A DNA stretch of 10,760 nucleotides from a bacterium (GTDB lineage Bacteria > NPL-UPA2 > JAGMAN01): assembly GCA_023130215.1 (NCBI GenBank), contig JAGMAN010000055.1, positions 1-10,760 of the forward strand, given 5' to 3'. Of the stretch, positions 2,095 through 9,870 are shown piece after piece. The translations under genes were made by a program, and so were the position numbers. The notes below the pieces were generated by a model. It did not search any database, had not been told where the DNA came from, and saw only the letters and a list, made by a program, of their open reading frames with translations. The first letter of the stretch is position 1, and each line of letters opens with the position of its first letter.

Positions 2095-3210
2095 CTAAAT
2101 TTGAAAATGAAAGTAGATGACGTCTCCATCCAGCACCGCGTAATTCTTCCCCTCTGTTCTAACTAAACCTTTCTCCCTCGCCACGGCGAGCGAGCCCTGC
2201 TCATTTAAATCCTCAAAGGGAATGACTTCAGCCCGGATGAAGCCAGTCTTCATATCCGAATGGACCTTGCCTGCTACCTCCGGCGCTTTCGTCCCTCGGA
2301 CTACGGTCCAGGCTCTCACTTTGCCCTCAACTACCGTATAGAAAGTGATTAAACCTAATAATGAATAACAGGCCTGAATTAATTTAGTGAGCCCAACCTG
2401 GGAAATGCCCATCTCTCGCCTAAATTCCTCGGCCTCCTCCTCTCCCAACTCGGCCATCTCCGCCTCTAACTTGGCCGGAACGGTCATTACCCCTGCCCCT
2501 TCCCTGGCAGCTACCTCCATAACCTTCCTCAGGTAAGGATGCCCAGGAGTGCACAGCATATCCTCCCCCACATTGGCTAAGTAAATAACCGGCTTTGAGG
2601 TTAAGAGACCAAGGCCCTTTATTGAATGGGATTCGGCTGCGTTCATGCTAAGGGAACGAACTGGTTTACCCTCACCGAGCCATGATTTAATCTTGGTGAG
2701 TAATCCTCTTTCCTCCTTCACCTTCGCTTGCAGCACTCTTACGTGTTCCCCACTTCTGGCCAACTTCTCCACCTTCTCCAAGCGCCGCTCCACCAACTCT
2801 AAATCGGCAAGAGCTAATTCTAAATTAACCATCTCAATATCCCGCTCAGGGTTAATGTCTGGCTCAATATGAGATACCCTTCCATCCTGGAAGCAGCGAA
2901 CTACATGCACCATAGCTTCCACTTCCCGAACATGGGATAGGAATTGGTTGCCCAATCCTTCTCCCTTGCTTGCTCCTTTAATCAGGCCGGCGATGTCCAG
3001 AAACTTAATGGTAGTGGGAGTTATATCTTCTGAGCCAACTATAGCTCCTAATCCTTTCAATCTCTCGTCGGGAACGGTCACCACGCCAACATTTGGCTCA
3101 ATAGTGCAGAAAGGATAGTCAGAAACTGAGGCTCCAGCCCGGGCAAGAGCATTGAATGCCATGGATTTTCCTACATTGGGAAGACCAATAATTCCGCAAC
3201 TTAAACCCAA
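2095..3210 (-). CDS. ychF: Redox-regulated ATPase YchF (OLA1 family, Obg-like)
   Basis: YchF is a ribosome-associated TRAFAC-class P-loop NTPase that prefers ATP to GTP and modulates translation and stress responses. From the TTG at 3210 the protein is 371 residues and opens MGLSCGIIGLPNVGKS, as family members do. Motifs: P-loop G9-L-P-N-V-G-K-S16; L-D-I-A-G-L (71-76) then I-K-G-A-S-K-G-E-G-L-G-N-Q-F; and N-V-G-E (213-216) in place of the GTPase NKxD, consistent with ATP use. A helical coiled-coil insert spans about 128-180, and the C-terminal TGS domain about 288-371 (V-R-A-W-T, A-G-K-V-H-S-D). The residue after K-S in the P-loop is Met rather than the usual Thr. GTG starts at 3237 and 3222 are also open, but would add residues coded by a palindromic repeat. 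The TTG has GGTGAGGG five bases upstream. Confidence 0.95.
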   Translation of the reverse strand: MGLSCGIIGLPNVGKSMAFNALARAGASVSDYPFCTIEPNVGVVTVPDERLKGLGAIVGSEDITPTTIKFLDIAGLIKGASKGEGLGNQFLSHVREVEAMVHVVRCFQDGRVSHIEPDINPERDIEMVNLELALADLELVERRLEKVEKLARSGEHVRVLQAKVKEERGLLTKIKSWLGEGKPVRSLSMNAAESHSIKGLGLLTSKPVIYLANVGEDMLCTPGHPYLRKVMEVAAREGAGVMTVPAKLEAEMAELGEEEAEEFRREMGISQVGLTKLIQACYSLLGLITFYTVVEGKVRAWTVVRGTKAPEVAGKVHSDMKTGFIRAEVIPFEDLNEQGSLAVAREKGLVRTEGKNYAVLDGDVIYFHFQI

Positions 3211-3215
3211 ATTAT

Positions 3216-3277
3216 CCCTCACCTTACTCCCCCTCACCCTTCCCTCTCTCCACGGGGAAAGGACTTAAGGTGGGGAG
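3216..3277. repeat. Imperfect palindromic C/T-rich repeat at the 5' end of ychF
   Basis: The plus strand reads CCCTCACCTTA (3216-3226), then a C/T-rich run with CTCCCC and TCACCCTT, then an AC-GGGG-AAAGG centre, then TTAAGGTGGGGAG (3265-3277). The outer arms pair with one or two mismatches. Short C/T-rich palindromes of the CCCTCACCCT...AGGGTGAGGG type are common interspersed repeats in environmental bacterial genomes; placing this one in that group is inference. It lies in the predicted ychF leader and contains the two GTG codons that could extend ychF. Confidence 0.5.
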
Positions 3278-3285
3278 TTGGAAAA

Positions 3286-3314
3286 ACTATACTATATCTA
3301 CCGATAGAAATCAA
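3286..3314 (-). promoter_or_regulatory. Probable ychF promoter
   Basis: On the minus strand TTGATT (3314-3309) and TATAGT (3291-3286) are 17 bases apart. A second TATAGT overlaps at 3296-3291 but has only a 12-base spacer, so the downstream one is preferred. The predicted start near 3279 gives a leader of about 70 bases that includes the palindromic repeat. Confidence 0.6.
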
Positions 3315-3350
3315 TGGAAAAATGGGATGTTCATGGAAATGGGATGTTCA
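3315..3350. repeat. Two tandem copies of TGGAAATGGGATGTTCA
   Basis: TGGAAAAATGGGATGTTCA (3315-3333) is followed at once by TGGAAATGGGATGTTCA (3334-3350). The copies are identical apart from two extra A residues in the first. The pair lies just upstream of the ychF promoter and just past the end of the 225-residue gene. Repeated short sites like this occur at the ends of some insertion sequences as transposase-binding sites, but no transposase or second end is in the window, so its nature is unknown. Confidence 0.75.
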
Positions 3351-3356
3351 GTGTTA

Positions 3357-3379
3357 AAAATATTCATTTAAAATATTTT
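3357..3379 (-). terminator. Weak AT-only hairpin overlapping the stop of the 225-residue gene
   Basis: On the minus strand AAAATATT (3379-3372), a seven-base loop, and AATATTTT (3364-3357) form a perfect 8-bp inverted repeat followed by further T residues. It could act as a terminator for the 3364-4041 gene. It has no G-C pairs and overlaps the coding end, so it may only reflect AT richness. Confidence 0.25.
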
Positions 3380-4041
3380 AATACCTTACGCTTTTTGTTT
3401 TTTGTTGTGATTTTGGCTATTATATTTGATTTATCTTTTCCTTTATTTAAGGTTTTTAAAATAGCTAATGCATGATTCGCGCGCTTAAAAGTAGTGGCTG
3501 AATCGATTTCACTACACCATGTTTCATCAGAAACATTGAAATAATGTTGCCATTTAGTTTTGGATGCAAAATTAGCCACTATAATATATCTTATTGGATC
3601 TTGGGAATCTTTCAGTCTTATATCTAATTCCTTTTTAGCTTTTTTTATTTTCGCTTCAGAAAAACCATGAAATGTCATATCAAATAGGCAATGCGAGACA
3701 ATTTCTTCTTTTGCATAATTGTTTAATATCTCTCCTGACAATGAAGATCCAAGCCATTCTGACCAGGGAGTGAGGCTTAATGAAAATTTCTCCAATTCCC
3801 CATCTTCTCTTTTTGTTCCGTCAACTCCATATATATCATGAAATTGGTCGTCTCCTTTCAGGATGGGCTCTCCTTTATCGCAAAATAATTCCATTGTGGA
3901 AGTTGTTGGGGATTTGGCTCGTAATTTTTTGTATACGAATTCATATCCAATGATTGATTTTTCCTGGCTTGGATAATTGCGCAGGAAGACCTTACGTACT
4001 GTATCCCAATCTGAAGCTGTAATAATCTCTTTTAATTTCAT
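3364..4041 (-). CDS. Hypothetical protein, AT-rich accessory gene
   Basis: The 225-residue soluble protein has no signal peptide or membrane segment. The N-terminus (MKLKEIITASDWDTVRKVF, then R-N-Y-P-S-Q-E, G-Y-E-F-V-Y-K-K-L and S-P-T-T-S-T-M) recalls small uncharacterised proteins such as DUF6557, which pair a W-x2-V-x-K start with a Y-x-x-V-x-x-x-L helix. I hold this only as a weak resemblance. The middle has W-S-E-W-L-G (93-98) and the end is lysine-rich (T-K-N-K-K-R-K-V-L-K). It is visibly more AT-rich than all neighbours and has no clear Shine-Dalgarno (TTAGAAAAAA before the ATG), both signs of a transferred gene. It starts about 15 bases after the recognisable intron remnant ends, so it either lies beyond the intron's deletion point or has inserted there. 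Confidence 0.72.
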   Translation of the reverse strand: MKLKEIITASDWDTVRKVFLRNYPSQEKSIIGYEFVYKKLRAKSPTTSTMELFCDKGEPILKGDDQFHDIYGVDGTKREDGELEKFSLSLTPWSEWLGSSLSGEILNNYAKEEIVSHCLFDMTFHGFSEAKIKKAKKELDIRLKDSQDPIRYIIVANFASKTKWQHYFNVSDETWCSEIDSATTFKRANHALAILKTLNKGKDKSNIIAKITTKNKKRKVLKYFK

Positions 4042-4055
4042 TTTTTTCTAATCGA

Positions 4056-4496
4056 CATAGGTAGGCTCTCACGGGAACCGTTCGGACCTTCAGCAAGGTG
4101 AGTCCTCCCCGCCTTTGCAGGGCTCGTATCCTCTGCCTACTATGTCCTCTGCTGACTTCTGCACGGCGTTCGGTCAGAATCTCTCCCAACCCAGTCCGCT
4201 TTTACTCAGACATCGTACAGACCTCCCGGGGTAAGATACATAGCCTTCCGTGCGTAAACGCCGGATTTATAAAGCACACCCCATTGCGGATGGAGAACTT
4301 CGTAGCCACGTGCCCACTCGTTCCGGGTGTACCACACCTCTTATCCGGTTCCTGTTCGTCGCCCCGCACTTTTGGATTGGACTTCCTCCAGACCCCGCCT
4401 CACGACGACGCCCCTGCCCTTTTCCTTACCTTCGGCTCCGCGTACACCTGGTGCGAGGACTTTCACCTCGCAAGCTATGTGCCATGCCTGGCACAC
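4056..4496 (-). mobile_element. Group II intron remnant: 5' RNA domains, truncated near the start of the intron-encoded protein
   Basis: On the minus strand the intron begins GTGTGCC (4496-4490), where TGTGCC pairs with GGCACA (4483-4478) around the AGGCAT loop. This is the classic group II 5' end (GUGYG). GCGAGGTGAAAGTCCTCGC follows, then the hallmark blocks CTTACCCCGGGAGGTCTG and CAGAAGTCAGCAGAGGACAT-AGTAGG, known from domain III/IV of bacterial introns such as that of Oceanobacillus iheyensis. A GGGGAGGAC stretch and TTGCTGAAGG follow, where the reverse-transcriptase reading frame would open. The similarity then stops at about 4056. No reverse transcriptase and no domain V or VI is present, so this copy cannot splice or move. 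The 3' boundary is approximate. Comparison with known introns is from memory. Confidence 0.85.
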
Positions 4497-4560
4497 ACGG
4501 CGGAGCTGAGTGACCATGGCACGAGCTTGCTTGCCTTAGCAAGCGAGTGACTGGTTAGGC
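4497..4560 (-). other. attC-like half-site interrupted by the group II intron remnant
   Basis: On the minus strand GCCTAAC (4560-4554) fits the integron R'' box (RYYYAAC). It starts five bases after the TGA of the 69-residue gene, as in a gene cassette. It is followed by a hairpin, GCTTGC (4544-4539) with GCAAGC (4530-4525), and a direct repeat of GTCACTC (4551-4545 and 4514-4508). The matching GTTRRRY box that should close the site is absent, because the intron begins at 4496. It is probably the left part of an attC site split by intron insertion and then by loss of the intron's 3' end. Confidence 0.55.
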
Positions 4561-4565
4561 ACCGT

Positions 4566-4775
4566 TCACACATATTCATACACGGGTGTTTCGATCACAC
4601 GCACAGGCTTCTCTTTCCCTCTGATCAGCTTCTGAATGTGCTCCACCGTTTCAGGAGCAAACAACTCCTCCCCGGTTTCCTTGCATACCCGTGCAGGAAC
4701 ATGCTCGATAATGTAGAAACTGCCTGCATGTTCCAGTGTGTAAATCACTTCAGTATCAAGCATGGTCTCTTTCAT
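4566..4775 (-). CDS. YgiT/MqsA-like antitoxin-type protein without the zinc-finger cysteines
   Basis: The 69-residue protein matches the C-terminal half of YgiT-type proteins, often the antitoxin partner of a small toxin. V-I-Y-T-L-E (9-14), I-I-E-H-V-P-A-R-V-C (22-31), G-E-E-L-F-A-P-E-T-V (35-44) and a closing V-I-E-T-P-V-Y-E-Y resemble the standard pattern of N-V-P-A-x-V-C-x-x-C-G-E-x-Y. The usual N-terminal CxxC is missing and the second CxxC is C-K-E-T, so only one cysteine remains and zinc binding is unlikely. Translation starts at ATG with GGGAGGT eight bases upstream, directly after the TGA of the DUF4258 gene. The pair is co-transcribed with a 16-base gap. Antitoxin function is inferred from this pairing; it could instead be an accessory regulator. 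Confidence 0.88.
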   Translation of the reverse strand: MKETMLDTEVIYTLEHAGSFYIIEHVPARVCKETGEELFAPETVEHIQKLIRGKEKPVRVIETPVYEYV

Positions 4776-4791
4776 AAAGGCCTACCTCCCT

Positions 4792-5109
4792 TCACCCCGT
4801 TTTCCTGACTCGGTAGTCGATCCAAAGATCCGGGTCAGGTTGGTAGAGCGTAATGATCTTGACCAAAGGACGGCTGGGATAGCTACACTGCACGTGCAAC
4901 GGATGTCCCGCTTTCGTAAACCCCAGGATCAGATAACTCGGCCCGTATTTGTCATCCGGGTAGTCCTCGATGACTTCGCTCTTGCCTATGATTGCCTCTT
5001 CAACTTCTGGAACGCTGATGCCGCGGATGATGCTCTGATCAACAGCATGCTTCGAAAATTCATACTGCCTCTGTCGAATCTTCCTCTTAATCCCATCAAG
5101 CATTTCCAT
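4792..5109 (-). CDS. DUF4258 family protein, probable toxin of a toxin-antitoxin pair
   Basis: The DUF4258 domain covers most of the 105 residues. Y16-x-F-S-K-H-A (to 22) is followed by I-I-R-G-I-S-V-P-E-V-E-E-A-I (27-40), E-V-I-E-D-Y-P-D-D (45-53), Y-G-P-S-Y-L-I-L-G (55-63), H-P-L-H-V-Q (69-74) and I-I-T-L-Y-Q-P-D-P-D-L-W at the end. The family is related to RelE/BrnT-like small toxins and is often encoded beside YgiT-like proteins, as here. The frequent H-A-x2-R motif is H-A-V-D-Q. The ATG at 5109 is preferred because a promoter -10 box ends six bases upstream and no Shine-Dalgarno is present. A TTG at 5115 and an ATG at 5103 are also in frame. Toxicity and an mRNA target are inferred from the family, not shown. 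Confidence 0.87.
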   Translation of the reverse strand: MEMLDGIKRKIRQRQYEFSKHAVDQSIIRGISVPEVEEAIIGKSEVIEDYPDDKYGPSYLILGFTKAGHPLHVQCSYPSRPLVKIITLYQPDPDLWIDYRVRKTG

Positions 5110-5115
5110 GGTCAA

Positions 5116-5144
5116 ATTCTATCAGATTAAACTCCCTTGGTCAA
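5116..5144 (-). promoter_or_regulatory. Promoter of the DUF4258/YgiT-like pair, positioned for leaderless mRNA
   Basis: On the minus strand TTGACC (5144-5139), 17 bases, then TAGAAT (5121-5116). The ATG at 5109 begins seven bases after the -10 box, where transcription would start. No ribosome binding site lies between. It starts 10 bases inside the cassette after the attC-like site, so the cassette would carry its own promoter. Confidence 0.7.
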
Positions 5145-5154
5145 CTTCCCATGT

Positions 5155-5210
5155 GCCTAACATTCAAGCTCACCTGCTGGCAATGAGCACCAGCGAATTG
5201 CCAGTTAGGT
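5155..5210. repeat. attC-like integron recombination site
   Basis: On the plus strand GCCTAAC (5155-5161) fits RYYYAAC and GTTAGGT (5204-5210) fits GTTRRRY; the two are complementary except at the outer base. Inside is a perfect 8-bp inverted repeat, CTGGCAAT (5177-5184) and ATTGCCAG (5197-5204), around a 12-base loop. ATTCAAGC follows the first box, as in many known attC sites. The 56-base length fits short attC elements. The site sits 11 bases after the stop of the 5222-5572 gene and just before the promoter of the next gene pair, as expected at a cassette junction. The internal arms are asymmetric (15 bases against none), so the match is good but not perfect. Confidence 0.68.
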
Positions 5211-5221
5211 GTTCGACGGGA

Positions 5222-5572
5222 TTACTTGGTTGTGCTCTTTTCCAATCTTTTTTGTTTCTTATTTATAGTGGCAAATGTAATAAACGATAGAAAAGACAAC
5301 TGACTTAGATGAGGCCACGAACTTAGCAGAAAAAACAAGAAGCATAAAGAAGCAAGGGAAACAAGAAATATCTTTTTCTCAGGCTTAATAGGAGACTTAA
5401 CCTTTGATGCATCAAATGGGATAAAAACCAAGTAAGATAGAAAGGACAAGAAAGACAAATATGATAATTGAGACAGATGCTGATAGGAATCACTACCCAG
5501 AAAGCCGAGAAAACCAAGAAAACCTATAAATCCAATAGCTCTCAGAAATCTACTATCATTTGCTCGTTTCAT
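5222..5572 (-). CDS. Low-complexity hydrophobic membrane protein of unknown function
   Basis: I do not recognise a characterised family. The 116 residues are rich in F, L, S and G. A G-F-L-G-F-L-G repeat spans 14-26, and L-S-Y-L-S-F-L-S-F-L-S-Y-L spans 36-48. A charged loop (54-67, with K-S-P-I-K-P-E-K-K) leads to a hydrophobic segment (68-86). A partial repeat H-L-S-Q-L-S-F-L-S-F (88-97) echoes H-L-S-Q-L-S-Y-L-S-F (32-41), and a basic tail (104-116) ends the protein. Three or four membrane segments are likely. A good Shine-Dalgarno (GGAGG, 5582-5578) five bases before the ATG and a strong promoter upstream argue that it is expressed. Its position directly before an attC-like site suggests a gene cassette. 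The repetitive composition leaves some chance that it is not a true protein gene. Confidence 0.6.
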   Translation of the reverse strand: MKRANDSRFLRAIGFIGFLGFLGFLGSDSYQHLSQLSYLSFLSFLSYLVFIPFDASKVKSPIKPEKKIFLVSLASLCFLFFLLSSWPHLSQLSFLSFITFATINKKQKRLEKSTTK

Positions 5573-5603
5573 TTATGCCTCCATTTTTCTATCCGTCGAA
5601 TAA

Positions 5604-5621
5604 TTAATAGACAAAGTTCAT
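5604..5621 (-). CDS. Possible five-codon leader ORF
   Basis: ATG-AAC-TTT-GTC-TAT-TAA encodes M-N-F-V-Y. A perfect AGGAGG (5637-5632) lies 10 bases upstream, almost at the predicted transcription start. It lies in the leader of the membrane-protein gene. It may be a short upstream peptide or only a ribosome standby site; the sequence alone cannot decide. Confidence 0.3.
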   Translation of the reverse strand: MNFVY

Positions 5622-5643
5622 GTTTGTATTTCCTCCTAGGGTA

Positions 5644-5700
5644 ATCGTAGCACTGTTTGAGGTATCTGTCAACAATTTTTCAAATTTTTCAAATTTTTTA
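5644..5700 (-). promoter_or_regulatory. Strong promoter with A-tract upstream element
   Basis: On the minus strand TTGACA (5672-5667) is followed by 17 bases and TACGAT (5649-5644). Directly upstream are three A-tracts in a roughly 9-base repeat (AAAAAATTTG, AAAAATTTG, AAAAATTG; 5699-5673), which look like an UP element or intrinsically bent DNA. The predicted start near 5637 is 65 bases before the ATG of the membrane protein. Confidence 0.72.
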
Positions 5701-5893
5701 TCTCCCTGGAAAGGTTTGGAAAAGATGTCCAGGAAATCTTAGAAAGGGTCAGGAAAGCAGAAGGCCGGGGATGGAGAGAAGACAGAGAAGGGAACAGCCA
5801 AAGTGGCCTCTGGAGAAGACTGCTGAAAGAATGGAGAGAGGGGAACACCCAGGGAGGTTCTGGAGGAGAGAGATGAGACGAGTTTTAAAATTC
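5701..5893. other. Intergenic spacer with strong purine bias on the plus strand
   Basis: No gene, RNA or terminator is recognisable between the der stop and the promoter at 5644-5700. The plus strand is dominated by G and A runs (for example GGAGAGAAGACAGAGAAGGG near 5772-5791 and GGAGGAGAGAGATGAGACG near 5862-5880). A plus-strand reading frame crosses it and enters der, but resembles no protein. There is no clear hairpin-plus-T-run terminator after der. Confidence 0.5.
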
Positions 5894-7315
5894 CTACCTT
5901 TTTCTCCCGCCCCTGGAGATAATCTTTATTGGGGTTCCCTGGAATCCAAAGGCCTGGCGGAGTCTATTGCTGATGTAGCGGTGGTATGATTCGCTGATAA
6001 ACCGGGGATTATCAGCGTAAAGGGCAAAGGTAGGTGGTTTTATTCCTACCTGGCTAAGGCGCTGTAGTTTCACTGGCTTGGCTCGCCTGCCAGCAGGCCG
6101 ATGGGATTTAGCCTCCTCAAAAACCCTGTCCAGGATTCTCTTAGCTGGCCGAAGCATCTGCTCTTTAGTCACCTCCCTCAGGAGGTCAATGACTTTGAAG
6201 ACCCGCTGTCCAGTAAGAGCTGAGACAAAAATAATAGGAGCGAAATTTAGGAAAGGAAGTTTCTTCTTAATTATTTCTCTATACTCCTCTATTAATCTGC
6301 CTTCGGATTCCCGTGCTTGCTTACTGGCTATGTGATTTTTAATAGTATCGGAAGCGGATGATTTTTGATATTCAACTACTAAGTCCCACTTATTTCCCAC
6401 GATAATAACCCCCCTGCCCTTCTCCTCGATATAGCCAGCTATTCGGCTATCCTGGGCACTCACCCCTTCCCAGGCATCGAAGAGAAGCAGGGCAATGTCA
6501 CAGCGTTCAAGGCTCCTTTGAGCTCGAGCAATGCTATAACTTTCAACCTGATGGCGGACTTTGCCTCTCGGCCGCATCCCGGCTGTATCAATAAAGATGA
6601 ATCTTTCTTCACCAAGACGGAAAATAGTATCCACGGCATCCCGGGTGGTCCCCGGCTCCTCATCAACGATGAGCCTCTCTTCCTGAAGAAGCCTATTAAT
6701 GAAGGAGGATTTCCCAACATTTGGTCTCCCCACTACAGCTACTTTGATGCCTGGGGGGAGAGTCCGCCGTAGCCCCTCGCTCCACTCGGGACAACCAGGT
6801 AGGCAACCCTGAGTGCGAACGGGTAGGAGGGCCGGCAGCAGTTCAGTCACCTTATCCAGAAGCTCATTTATTCTCAGGCCGTGAATAGCTGAGATGGGAA
6901 CCGGCTCCCCCAAACCCAATTGGTAGAACTGGGAGATGGTTATCTCTGATTCTAAATTATCAACTTTGTTCACGACCAGAATTATCGGCTTATCGGACTT
7001 GCGCAGGCGCTTCCCTATTTCTTCATCTACAGAGGTTAGGCCATCTTGAGCATCGACAACGAAGAGGATTAAATCTGCCTCTTGAATAGCTATCCTCACC
7101 TGCTCCCTGACCAATGACGAGATTCCCTGAGAGGCATCGGGTACCAGCCCCCCTGTGTCAATTAAGGAGAAACTCTTCCTGCTCCATTCCCCCTCAGCGT
7201 AAATTCTATCCCGGGTGACGCCTGGCTCTCGCTCAACGATAGCTCTACGCTCTCCAATGATTCGATTGAAGAGAGTGGATTTGCCCACGTTGGGGCGACC
7301 AACAATGGCCATCAT
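5894..7315 (-). CDS. der: Ribosome-assembly GTPase Der (EngA)
   Basis: Der has tandem GTPase domains and is needed for 50S subunit maturation. With the ATG at 7315 the protein is 473 residues. Domain 1: G6-R-P-N-V-G-K-S-T14, D-T-G-G (53-56), N-K-V-D (116-119), S-A (142-143). Domain 2: G196-R-P-N-V-G-K-S-S204, D-T-A-G (243-246), N-K-W-D (308-311), S-A-L (365-367). The C-terminal KH-like domain spans about 380-473 and ends in a basic tail. A lysine/glutamate-rich insert (about 316-344) after N-K-W-D makes the protein somewhat longer than usual. The start follows the pgsA stop by four bases, with AAAGGTG seven bases before the ATG. The frame stays open upstream to 7381, but those residues are not family-like. 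Confidence 0.96.
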   Translation of the reverse strand: MMAIVGRPNVGKSTLFNRIIGERRAIVEREPGVTRDRIYAEGEWSRKSFSLIDTGGLVPDASQGISSLVREQVRIAIQEADLILFVVDAQDGLTSVDEEIGKRLRKSDKPIILVVNKVDNLESEITISQFYQLGLGEPVPISAIHGLRINELLDKVTELLPALLPVRTQGCLPGCPEWSEGLRRTLPPGIKVAVVGRPNVGKSSFINRLLQEERLIVDEEPGTTRDAVDTIFRLGEERFIFIDTAGMRPRGKVRHQVESYSIARAQRSLERCDIALLLFDAWEGVSAQDSRIAGYIEEKGRGVIIVGNKWDLVVEYQKSSASDTIKNHIASKQARESEGRLIEEYREIIKKKLPFLNFAPIIFVSALTGQRVFKVIDLLREVTKEQMLRPAKRILDRVFEEAKSHRPAGRRAKPVKLQRLSQVGIKPPTFALYADNPRFISESYHRYISNRLRQAFGFQGTPIKIISRGGRKR

Positions 7316-8674: not shown

Positions 8675-9870
8675 TTCTTGCCACCTCTCAATATCTCTGA
8701 AACGATCTGCACGTCTTTATCCCCTCTTCCAGAAAGGCAAATGATGATTATCTTGCTTCTCGGCAATTTGGGAGCTAACTTCATTGCATAGGCAATAGCG
8801 TGAGCTGGCTCCAAGGCCGGAATCATTCCTTCCAGCTCCGAGGTCAACTCAAAGGCTTTTAGAGCCTCCTTATCCGTAACTGAGACATATTCAGCTCTTC
8901 CCGTCTCCTTATAGAAGCTGTGCTCCGGTCCAACCCCAGGGTAGTCCAGCCCGGCCGAGACAGAATGGGTAGTCATAATCTGTCCATTTCTGTCTTGGAG
9001 GAGGTAGCTTCGGCTTCCATGCAGGACTCCCATGCTACCCGCCAAGAGAGCAGCGGCATGCTTTGTCGTTTGAAGACCAAGTCCTCCTGCCTCCACTCCA
9101 ATGAATTTTACCTTATCCTTGTAGAAGGGATGGAAAAGCCCCAGGGAGTTACTTCCTCCTCCCACACAAGCGACAAGATAGTCGGGAAGCCTTCTCTCAA
9201 CCTTCAGAATCTGTTTCTTCGTCTCCCTGCCAATCACCAATTGAAAATCCCGCACCATCATCGGATAAGGATGGGGGCCGACGACGGAGCCGAGGACATA
9301 ATGGGTAGAGCGAACATTTGTCACCCAGTCTCTGATGGTCTCATTGATAGCATCTTTAAGGGTCCTGCTTCCCGAGGAGACCGGGATGACTTTGGTTCCC
9401 AGTAACTGCATTCGATACACATTGATAGCCTGCCTCTCTATATCCTCCTCCCCCATATAGACTTCGCAGCGCAGACCAAACATAGCCGCTGCCGTAGCTG
9501 TGGCCACTCCATGCTGACCTGCTCCCGTCTCAGCAATGATGCGTTTCTTGCCCATTCTCTTAGCCAGCAGAACCTGTCCTAAGGTATTATTGATCTTATG
9601 AGCTCCGGTATGGGCCAGGTCCTCCCGCTTTAGATAAATCTTCGCTCCTTCTAACTCCCTGGTCAGCCTTTCAGCAAGATAAAGAGGAGTTGGCCGACCA
9701 GCATACTCTCTCAGATAATAATTTAGTTCCTTCTGGAATGCCCGGTCTCTCTTTGCCTTTAAATAGGCCTTCTCTAACTCATCAAGGGCTGACATCAAGG
9801 TCTCCGGAACGAACTTCCCTCCAAAAATCCCGAAACGACCGTTCTTATCTGGTAGCTTCACCTTTCCCAT
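8671..9870 (-). CDS. trpB: Tryptophan synthase beta chain
   Basis: TrpB condenses indole with serine to form tryptophan using pyridoxal phosphate. The 399 residues are the standard TrpB1 length. Motifs: R-F-G[10 protein letters not shown] (12-24); PLP lysine K92 in H-T-G-A-H-K-I-N-N; catalytic E114 in A-E-T-G-A-G-Q-H-G; phosphate-binding G-G-G-S-N (237-241); and L-S-G-R-G-D-K-D (379-386). The ATG at 9870 has GAGGAG five bases upstream and lies within trpF, overlapping it by 26 bases. Confidence 0.98.

Follow-up and report, generated by a model that had tools for sequence, protein, structure and literature searches.

A degraded group IIC intron in an attC site of an integrase-less cassette array points to a lineage that targets the attC top strand

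How did part of a group II intron come to lie within what looks like an integron attC site, and what kind of intron was it? The locus is on a 10,760-nt contig (JAGMAN010000055.1; "the window" is this whole stretch) from a bacterium of the sparsely sampled phylum NPL-UPA2, with a 1-Mb genome that is represented by one metagenome bin of 136 contigs. An earlier note on this DNA described the remnant of a group II intron, shortened by a deletion and lodged in an attC-like site, and linked it to integrons; it was right on both counts. We propose, with roughly 90% confidence, that a group IIC intron, now defunct, inserted by retrotransposition into the top strand of a cassette's attC site, at the R' box, in an array without an integrase, and that it later underwent an internal deletion. 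The intron, the cassette genes, and the attC-like sites of the window are all given on the minus strand.

Identity and borders of the intron

The intron remnant is real: between 4409 and 4085 on the minus strand, Rfam models match group II domains from domain I up to where domain IV begins. Domain I (4236-4409) matches RF02001 (group-II-D1D4-3; 120.3 bits, E = 6.5e-25), and the later domains up to the start of domain IV (4085-4194) match RF01998 (group-II-D1D4-1; 49.8 bits, E = 9.5e-7). Besides this domain I-III core, the intron has the GUGYG 5' end of class IIC (GTGTG at 4496), an upstream stem-loop (the attC site), and a short IBS1-EBS1 pairing. In class IIC, the partner of EBS1 is a stretch of 3-4 bases in the 5' exon (PMC7923331). 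The EBS1 of the window intron is ACG (4309-4311), which we identified from its loop and position, as in relatives, and from co-variation with the exon (see below); it pairs with the IBS1 CGT at 4499-4497. The earlier note had suspected another class of intron, but the Rfam core and the ACG/CGT pair show that the intron is class IIC.

Relatives with the same RNA encode a group II reverse transcriptase (RT). We found no RT in the window or elsewhere in the bin. D1D4-3 has no second copy in the bin and no copy in the other eight genomes of the phylum that we searched. Domain V has no Rfam match in the window. Class IIC introns should have domains V and VI; that this one does not have both is due to the deletion, and the locus is a remnant and not an intact intron.

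The 5' end (GTGTGCCAGGCATGG at 4496) had been placed correctly in the earlier note. The intron of a distant genome (G014) aligns from exactly that base, and the 5' exon is 87% identical, right up to the border, to an intron-free site in another contig of the same genome (C84, positions 3298-3359). Two independent borders therefore meet here: homology to introns starts where homology to the intron-free paralogue ends.

For the 3' end, relatives, whether full-length or partly deleted, end in a conserved domain VI of the form ..CCGTGAGG..CCCTATCCCGAT^T, where the caret marks the edge of the intron. The window reads CCGTGAGAGCCTACCTATGTCGAT^TAGAAA at 4074-4045, and its 4074-4051 portion, which we take to be the surviving 3' strand of domain VI with the 3' splice site, is the window's best match to the domain VI end of the lineage. 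In gapped alignments to the consensus of this end, position 4051 scored 28, as compared to 16 for the next best position on either strand of the window. The highest score in 60 shuffled windows was 20, and none of 4,000 random 60-nt stretches reached 28. (An ungapped position matrix gave 5.1 at 4051, below the 10.5 at 9260, and was not significant across the window; the gapped alignment resolved this.)

With this 3' end, the intron spans 4496-4051 (446 nt) and has an internal deletion near 4079-4073. Comparison with L085, L078, and the domain VI ends of relatives puts the approximate junction in this interval, with the start of domain IV joined to the loop of domain VI. The intron has lost its RT gene, domain V, and half of domain VI. 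The earlier note had the intron ending abruptly, with the protein, domains V-VI, and the rest of the attC gone. The RT and domain V are indeed lost, but the intron is not truncated at its end, as the 3' strand of domain VI and the splice site are present, and so is the rest of the R' box. We also considered CGAACGGTTC as the 3' strand of domain V and rejected it: L085 has the identical letters at the start of its domain IV, before its RT.

Other internally deleted copies of this lineage are lodged in attC sites and keep both termini (L032, L078, L122, L143, L100, and L109; about 219-731 nt). L032 and L078 are ORF-less: they have domains V and VI but no RT, so ORF-less copies may be common in the lineage. 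Given these two copies with intact domains V and VI, and given that the window copy keeps both termini, might it still be a useful ORF-less intron that is spliced or mobilised in trans, with the adjacent DUF6557 gene as its cargo or target? We consider this very improbable, because the catalytic core (domain V) is absent and the bin offers neither an RT nor a second intron to act on it. In particular, the DUF6557 gene cannot be cargo, as the intron's 3' end at 4051 precedes it.

The internal deletion could also be a collapse or a mis-join during assembly, since the bin is fragmented and is known from its assembly alone. However, the remnant is internal to a single contig, with both of its flanks matched by the same pair of sister species, the intron is found nowhere else in the bin, and comparable internally deleted copies exist in other genomes, which leaves an artefact only a slim chance. 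We return to the preferred reading, a genuine internal deletion in an intron that had inserted into attC.

The split attC site and its cassette array

The GCCTAAC box reported in the earlier note is present at 4560-4554, and the closing GTTRRRY box, which was thought to be missing, is split by the intron, with GT at 4498-4497 and TAGAAA at 4050-4045. Joining the exons (CGCC-GT and TAGAAA) restores a GTTRRR box. As compared to the attC consensus (R'' RYYYAAC, R' GTTRRRY), GCCTAAC fits R'' and the joined GTTAGAA fits R' except that its last position is not Y. The part of the attC site before the intron (4497-4560) comprises R'', the L' arm, and the IBS1 CGT, and it lacks the L'' arm that is in the C84 paralogue. 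On the other side, TAGAAA is the start of the next cassette and joins to GTTAGAAA; the 3' exons of relatives also start with T-RRR.

Upstream of the intron is a cassette that resembles a toxin-antitoxin pair. It has a DUF4258 gene (4792-5115; PF14076, 75 bits), which would be the toxin-like partner, and a small ORF of 69 amino acids (4566-4775) that is antitoxin-like by eye and has no match in Pfam. This cassette (5115-4566) is bounded by GTTAGGC (5161-5155) and by GCCTAAC (4560-4554), which are complementary. GTTAGGC belongs to a second attC-like site (5155-5211), which is degenerate and scores 9-10 bits on either strand with our attC model. The order on the minus strand is the toxin-antitoxin-like cassette, the intron, and then the next cassette, with the DUF6557 gene (4041-3364; PF20194, 113 bits) and a weak R''-like box (TTTTTAAC) at 3360-3353. 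The ATG of the DUF6557 gene is 10 nt past the intron end (4041-4051) and has no visible ribosome-binding site, unlike the host's other cassettes. Between this gene and YchF, a 14-nt sequence (AAATGGGATGTTCA) is repeated exactly in direct orientation at 3320-3350, with 17 nt between the copies. Next to YchF or Der in two congeners, nothing matches the block 3210-5867, which makes the array specific to the host's lineage.

A second array is found on contig C84, where the genes are also on the minus strand. The contig also contains a MITE-like element with ends GAGGCTGTAGAAAAA and TTTTTCTACAGCCTC (L007, 3171-3296), and another such element is found in Solimonas aquatica (L136, about 7078-7244). 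In both cases the element follows immediately on the GTT of an attC R' box and is flanked by a duplication of GTT. The attC site with the element in L136 also holds a top-strand IIC intron.

No protein in the host bin matches IntI (TIGR02249) above the cut-off, so we do not have a complete integron. As the bin is about 90% complete, an integrase may still exist in the host. Another genome of the same phylum (G006) has an integrase match of 405.6 bits to TIGR02249 with attC beside it; this locus (contig C41; L025, 10570-12158) encodes a full integron integrase, with the attC site about 290 nt past its 3' end, unlike the layout of class 1 integrons. Clusters of attC sites that lack an integron integrase are known as CALINs. 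The window's array resembles a CALIN in having attC-bounded cassettes, toxin-antitoxin-like genes, and no integrase above the cut-off in the bin, but it differs in that its attC sites are eroded.

Which strand of attC was the target

To call attC sites and their strands, we replaced a cruder screen for boxes (regular expressions) with a covariance model, for which we used eight attC sites from class 1 integrons whose orientation is known. This small model does not call the attC sites of the window, which are too degenerate, so we argue their strand from the paralogue, the cassette genes, and the pairing of the boxes. In the C84 array, the model calls an attC on the minus strand with 36 bits. 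With filters off, the paralogue of the intron's target also aligns over its whole length on the minus strand, though at a weak 7 bits; in this alignment its L'' arm has an extra base, as in known top strands. The window copy has lost L''. A global DNA alignment of attC sites was uninformative.

The published IIC-attC introns are in the bottom strand of attC, at TTGT^T of R'', and run against the genes (PMC7923331). Among the introns that we compared, EBS1 and IBS1 co-vary: ACAA with TTGT for introns in the attC bottom strand, TAA with TTA or TAC with GTA for those at terminators, and ACG with CGT for those in the attC top strand. The window intron has ACG in the shared domain I loop, matching its exon CGT, although this pairing spans just 3 bases. 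Four plasmid introns have a TTGT exon, and their annotated neighbour genes run opposite to them. The window intron instead interrupts CGT^T in R' and runs with the genes.

Could it nevertheless be a classical intron in the bottom strand of an attC that is oriented against the genes? In favour of this, the classical type is the best known, attC boxes are nearly symmetric, and the window's sites are degenerate. Against this, the exon is CGT and not TTGT, EBS1 is ACG and not ACAA, every cassette gene in both arrays runs with the intron, the 36-bit attC of C84 is on the intron's strand, and the window's domain I groups with top-strand introns (see below), so a bottom-strand origin is very unlikely. 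As read from its sequence, the intron is in the attC top strand, between GT and T of the R' box, in the direction of the genes. This also explains why the earlier note found the exon CCGCCGT unusual: it does differ from TTGT^T, not because the intron is of another class but because the target is CGT^T in R' of the top strand. Cassette recombination does not use the top strand of attC.

A probable widespread top-strand lineage

We scanned GTDB contigs for the pattern CGT^GTGYGCCNGGCATGG and found at least 119 loci. Among the matches listed, the independent attC model calls the target itself in 18, always on the intron's strand (18/18); of the other attC calls in these loci, 39 of 40 agree with the strand of the intron. 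Because the pattern includes CGT by design, these counts do not give a ratio of top- to bottom-strand insertions. Most of these loci are from Pseudomonadota; also among them are single MAG contigs that are labelled as Verrucomicrobia, Armatimonadetes, Paceibacterota, and Methanomethylicus, which might be mis-binned.

Many full-length IIC introns use this target and carry an EBS1 that matches it. In class 1 integrons, such introns split the attC sites of aadA1 (L154), aadA2 (L153), and aacA4 (L145). In all three, the insertion reads CGT, intron, TAGATGC, in the direction of the gene and with intI1 present, which is the same point as in the window. These plasmid introns share with the window intron both the insertion at CGT^T of R' and EBS1 ACG. 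One published top-strand case, from Enterobacter cloacae (Rodriguez-Martinez 2012), is described in PMC7923331; by that description it is, like these three, a IIC intron in the attC top strand that runs with the genes. The window copy differs from these four in that it has no RT or domain V and is in a sedentary, integrase-less array.

In a tree of RTs, bottom-strand attC introns form one clade (support 98/94) and top-strand introns are elsewhere; the strand labels imply 3 changes, as compared to 8.6 when shuffled. (The ORF from L039 has a very long branch in this tree and is probably not a real RT.) As its RT is lost, the window copy has no direct place in the RT tree; in a tree of domain I, the window intron is with the top-strand set, separated by a 95/98 split from terminator and bottom-strand introns, though this tree rests on 300 nt, has modest support, and includes a few long-branch false positives of the pattern. 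The nearest sequence to the window in this tree is L085 (86% identical).

Classical IIC-attC introns (the S.ma.I2 type; L146, L155, L158, and L160) resemble the window intron in class, in having attC as the target, and in relying on a hairpin plus a short EBS1/IBS1 pairing. They differ in strand and site (bottom strand, TTGT^T of R''), in direction (opposite to the genes), in EBS1 (ACAA), and in their RTs, which make up a separate clade. Group IIC introns often follow terminators, as does the G014 intron, a distant homologue from outside this lineage. Terminator-inserted introns share the RNA class and the logic of insertion; they differ in their target (a terminator hairpin) and in EBS1.

We think it likely that IIC introns colonised attC along at least two separate routes: one lineage uses the bottom strand (R'', TTGT^T, opposite to the genes), and a second, widespread one is specialised on the top strand (R', CGT^T, in gene direction). 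In the literature that we consulted, the second is represented by one "unusual" case. The window would then show that it also reached arrays that have no integrase, in a sparsely sampled phylum. The window copy itself is a degraded representative of a kind that is known but has hardly been described; of greater interest is how broad the top-strand lineage is.

Discussion

Both intron ends, the split R' box, the EBS1/IBS1 match, the class and lineage, and the deletion can be read from the DNA, and they are the basis for our explanation; from them we infer hairpin-guided reverse splicing, the order of events, and the consequences for function. The intron RNP would have reverse-spliced into the single-stranded top strand of attC, folded as a hairpin, and the RT would have made the copy. 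The attC hairpin would have served as the upstream stem-loop while EBS1 ACG paired with IBS1 CGT, which would put the insertion between the two Ts of R' (G-T^T-R-R-R-Y), in the direction of the cassette genes. A later internal deletion would have taken the RT, the catalytic domain V, and half of domain VI and left both termini. As domain V is absent, the window copy is almost certainly dead and would neither splice nor move. Because the intron splits the attC, the toxin-antitoxin-like cassette is probably locked in place.

As a locus this is a fossil, and its value is that it exposes the logic of the target: an intron lineage regularly docks on the top strand of attC. Introns of this lineage insert in the direction of the genes, so splicing could remove an intact copy from the cassette transcript and keep the message whole, even though the insertion splits the attC DNA and probably locks the cassette. 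The two IIC lineages, with their mirror-image specificities, offer a testable contrast, and both are also found in clinical class 1 integrons.
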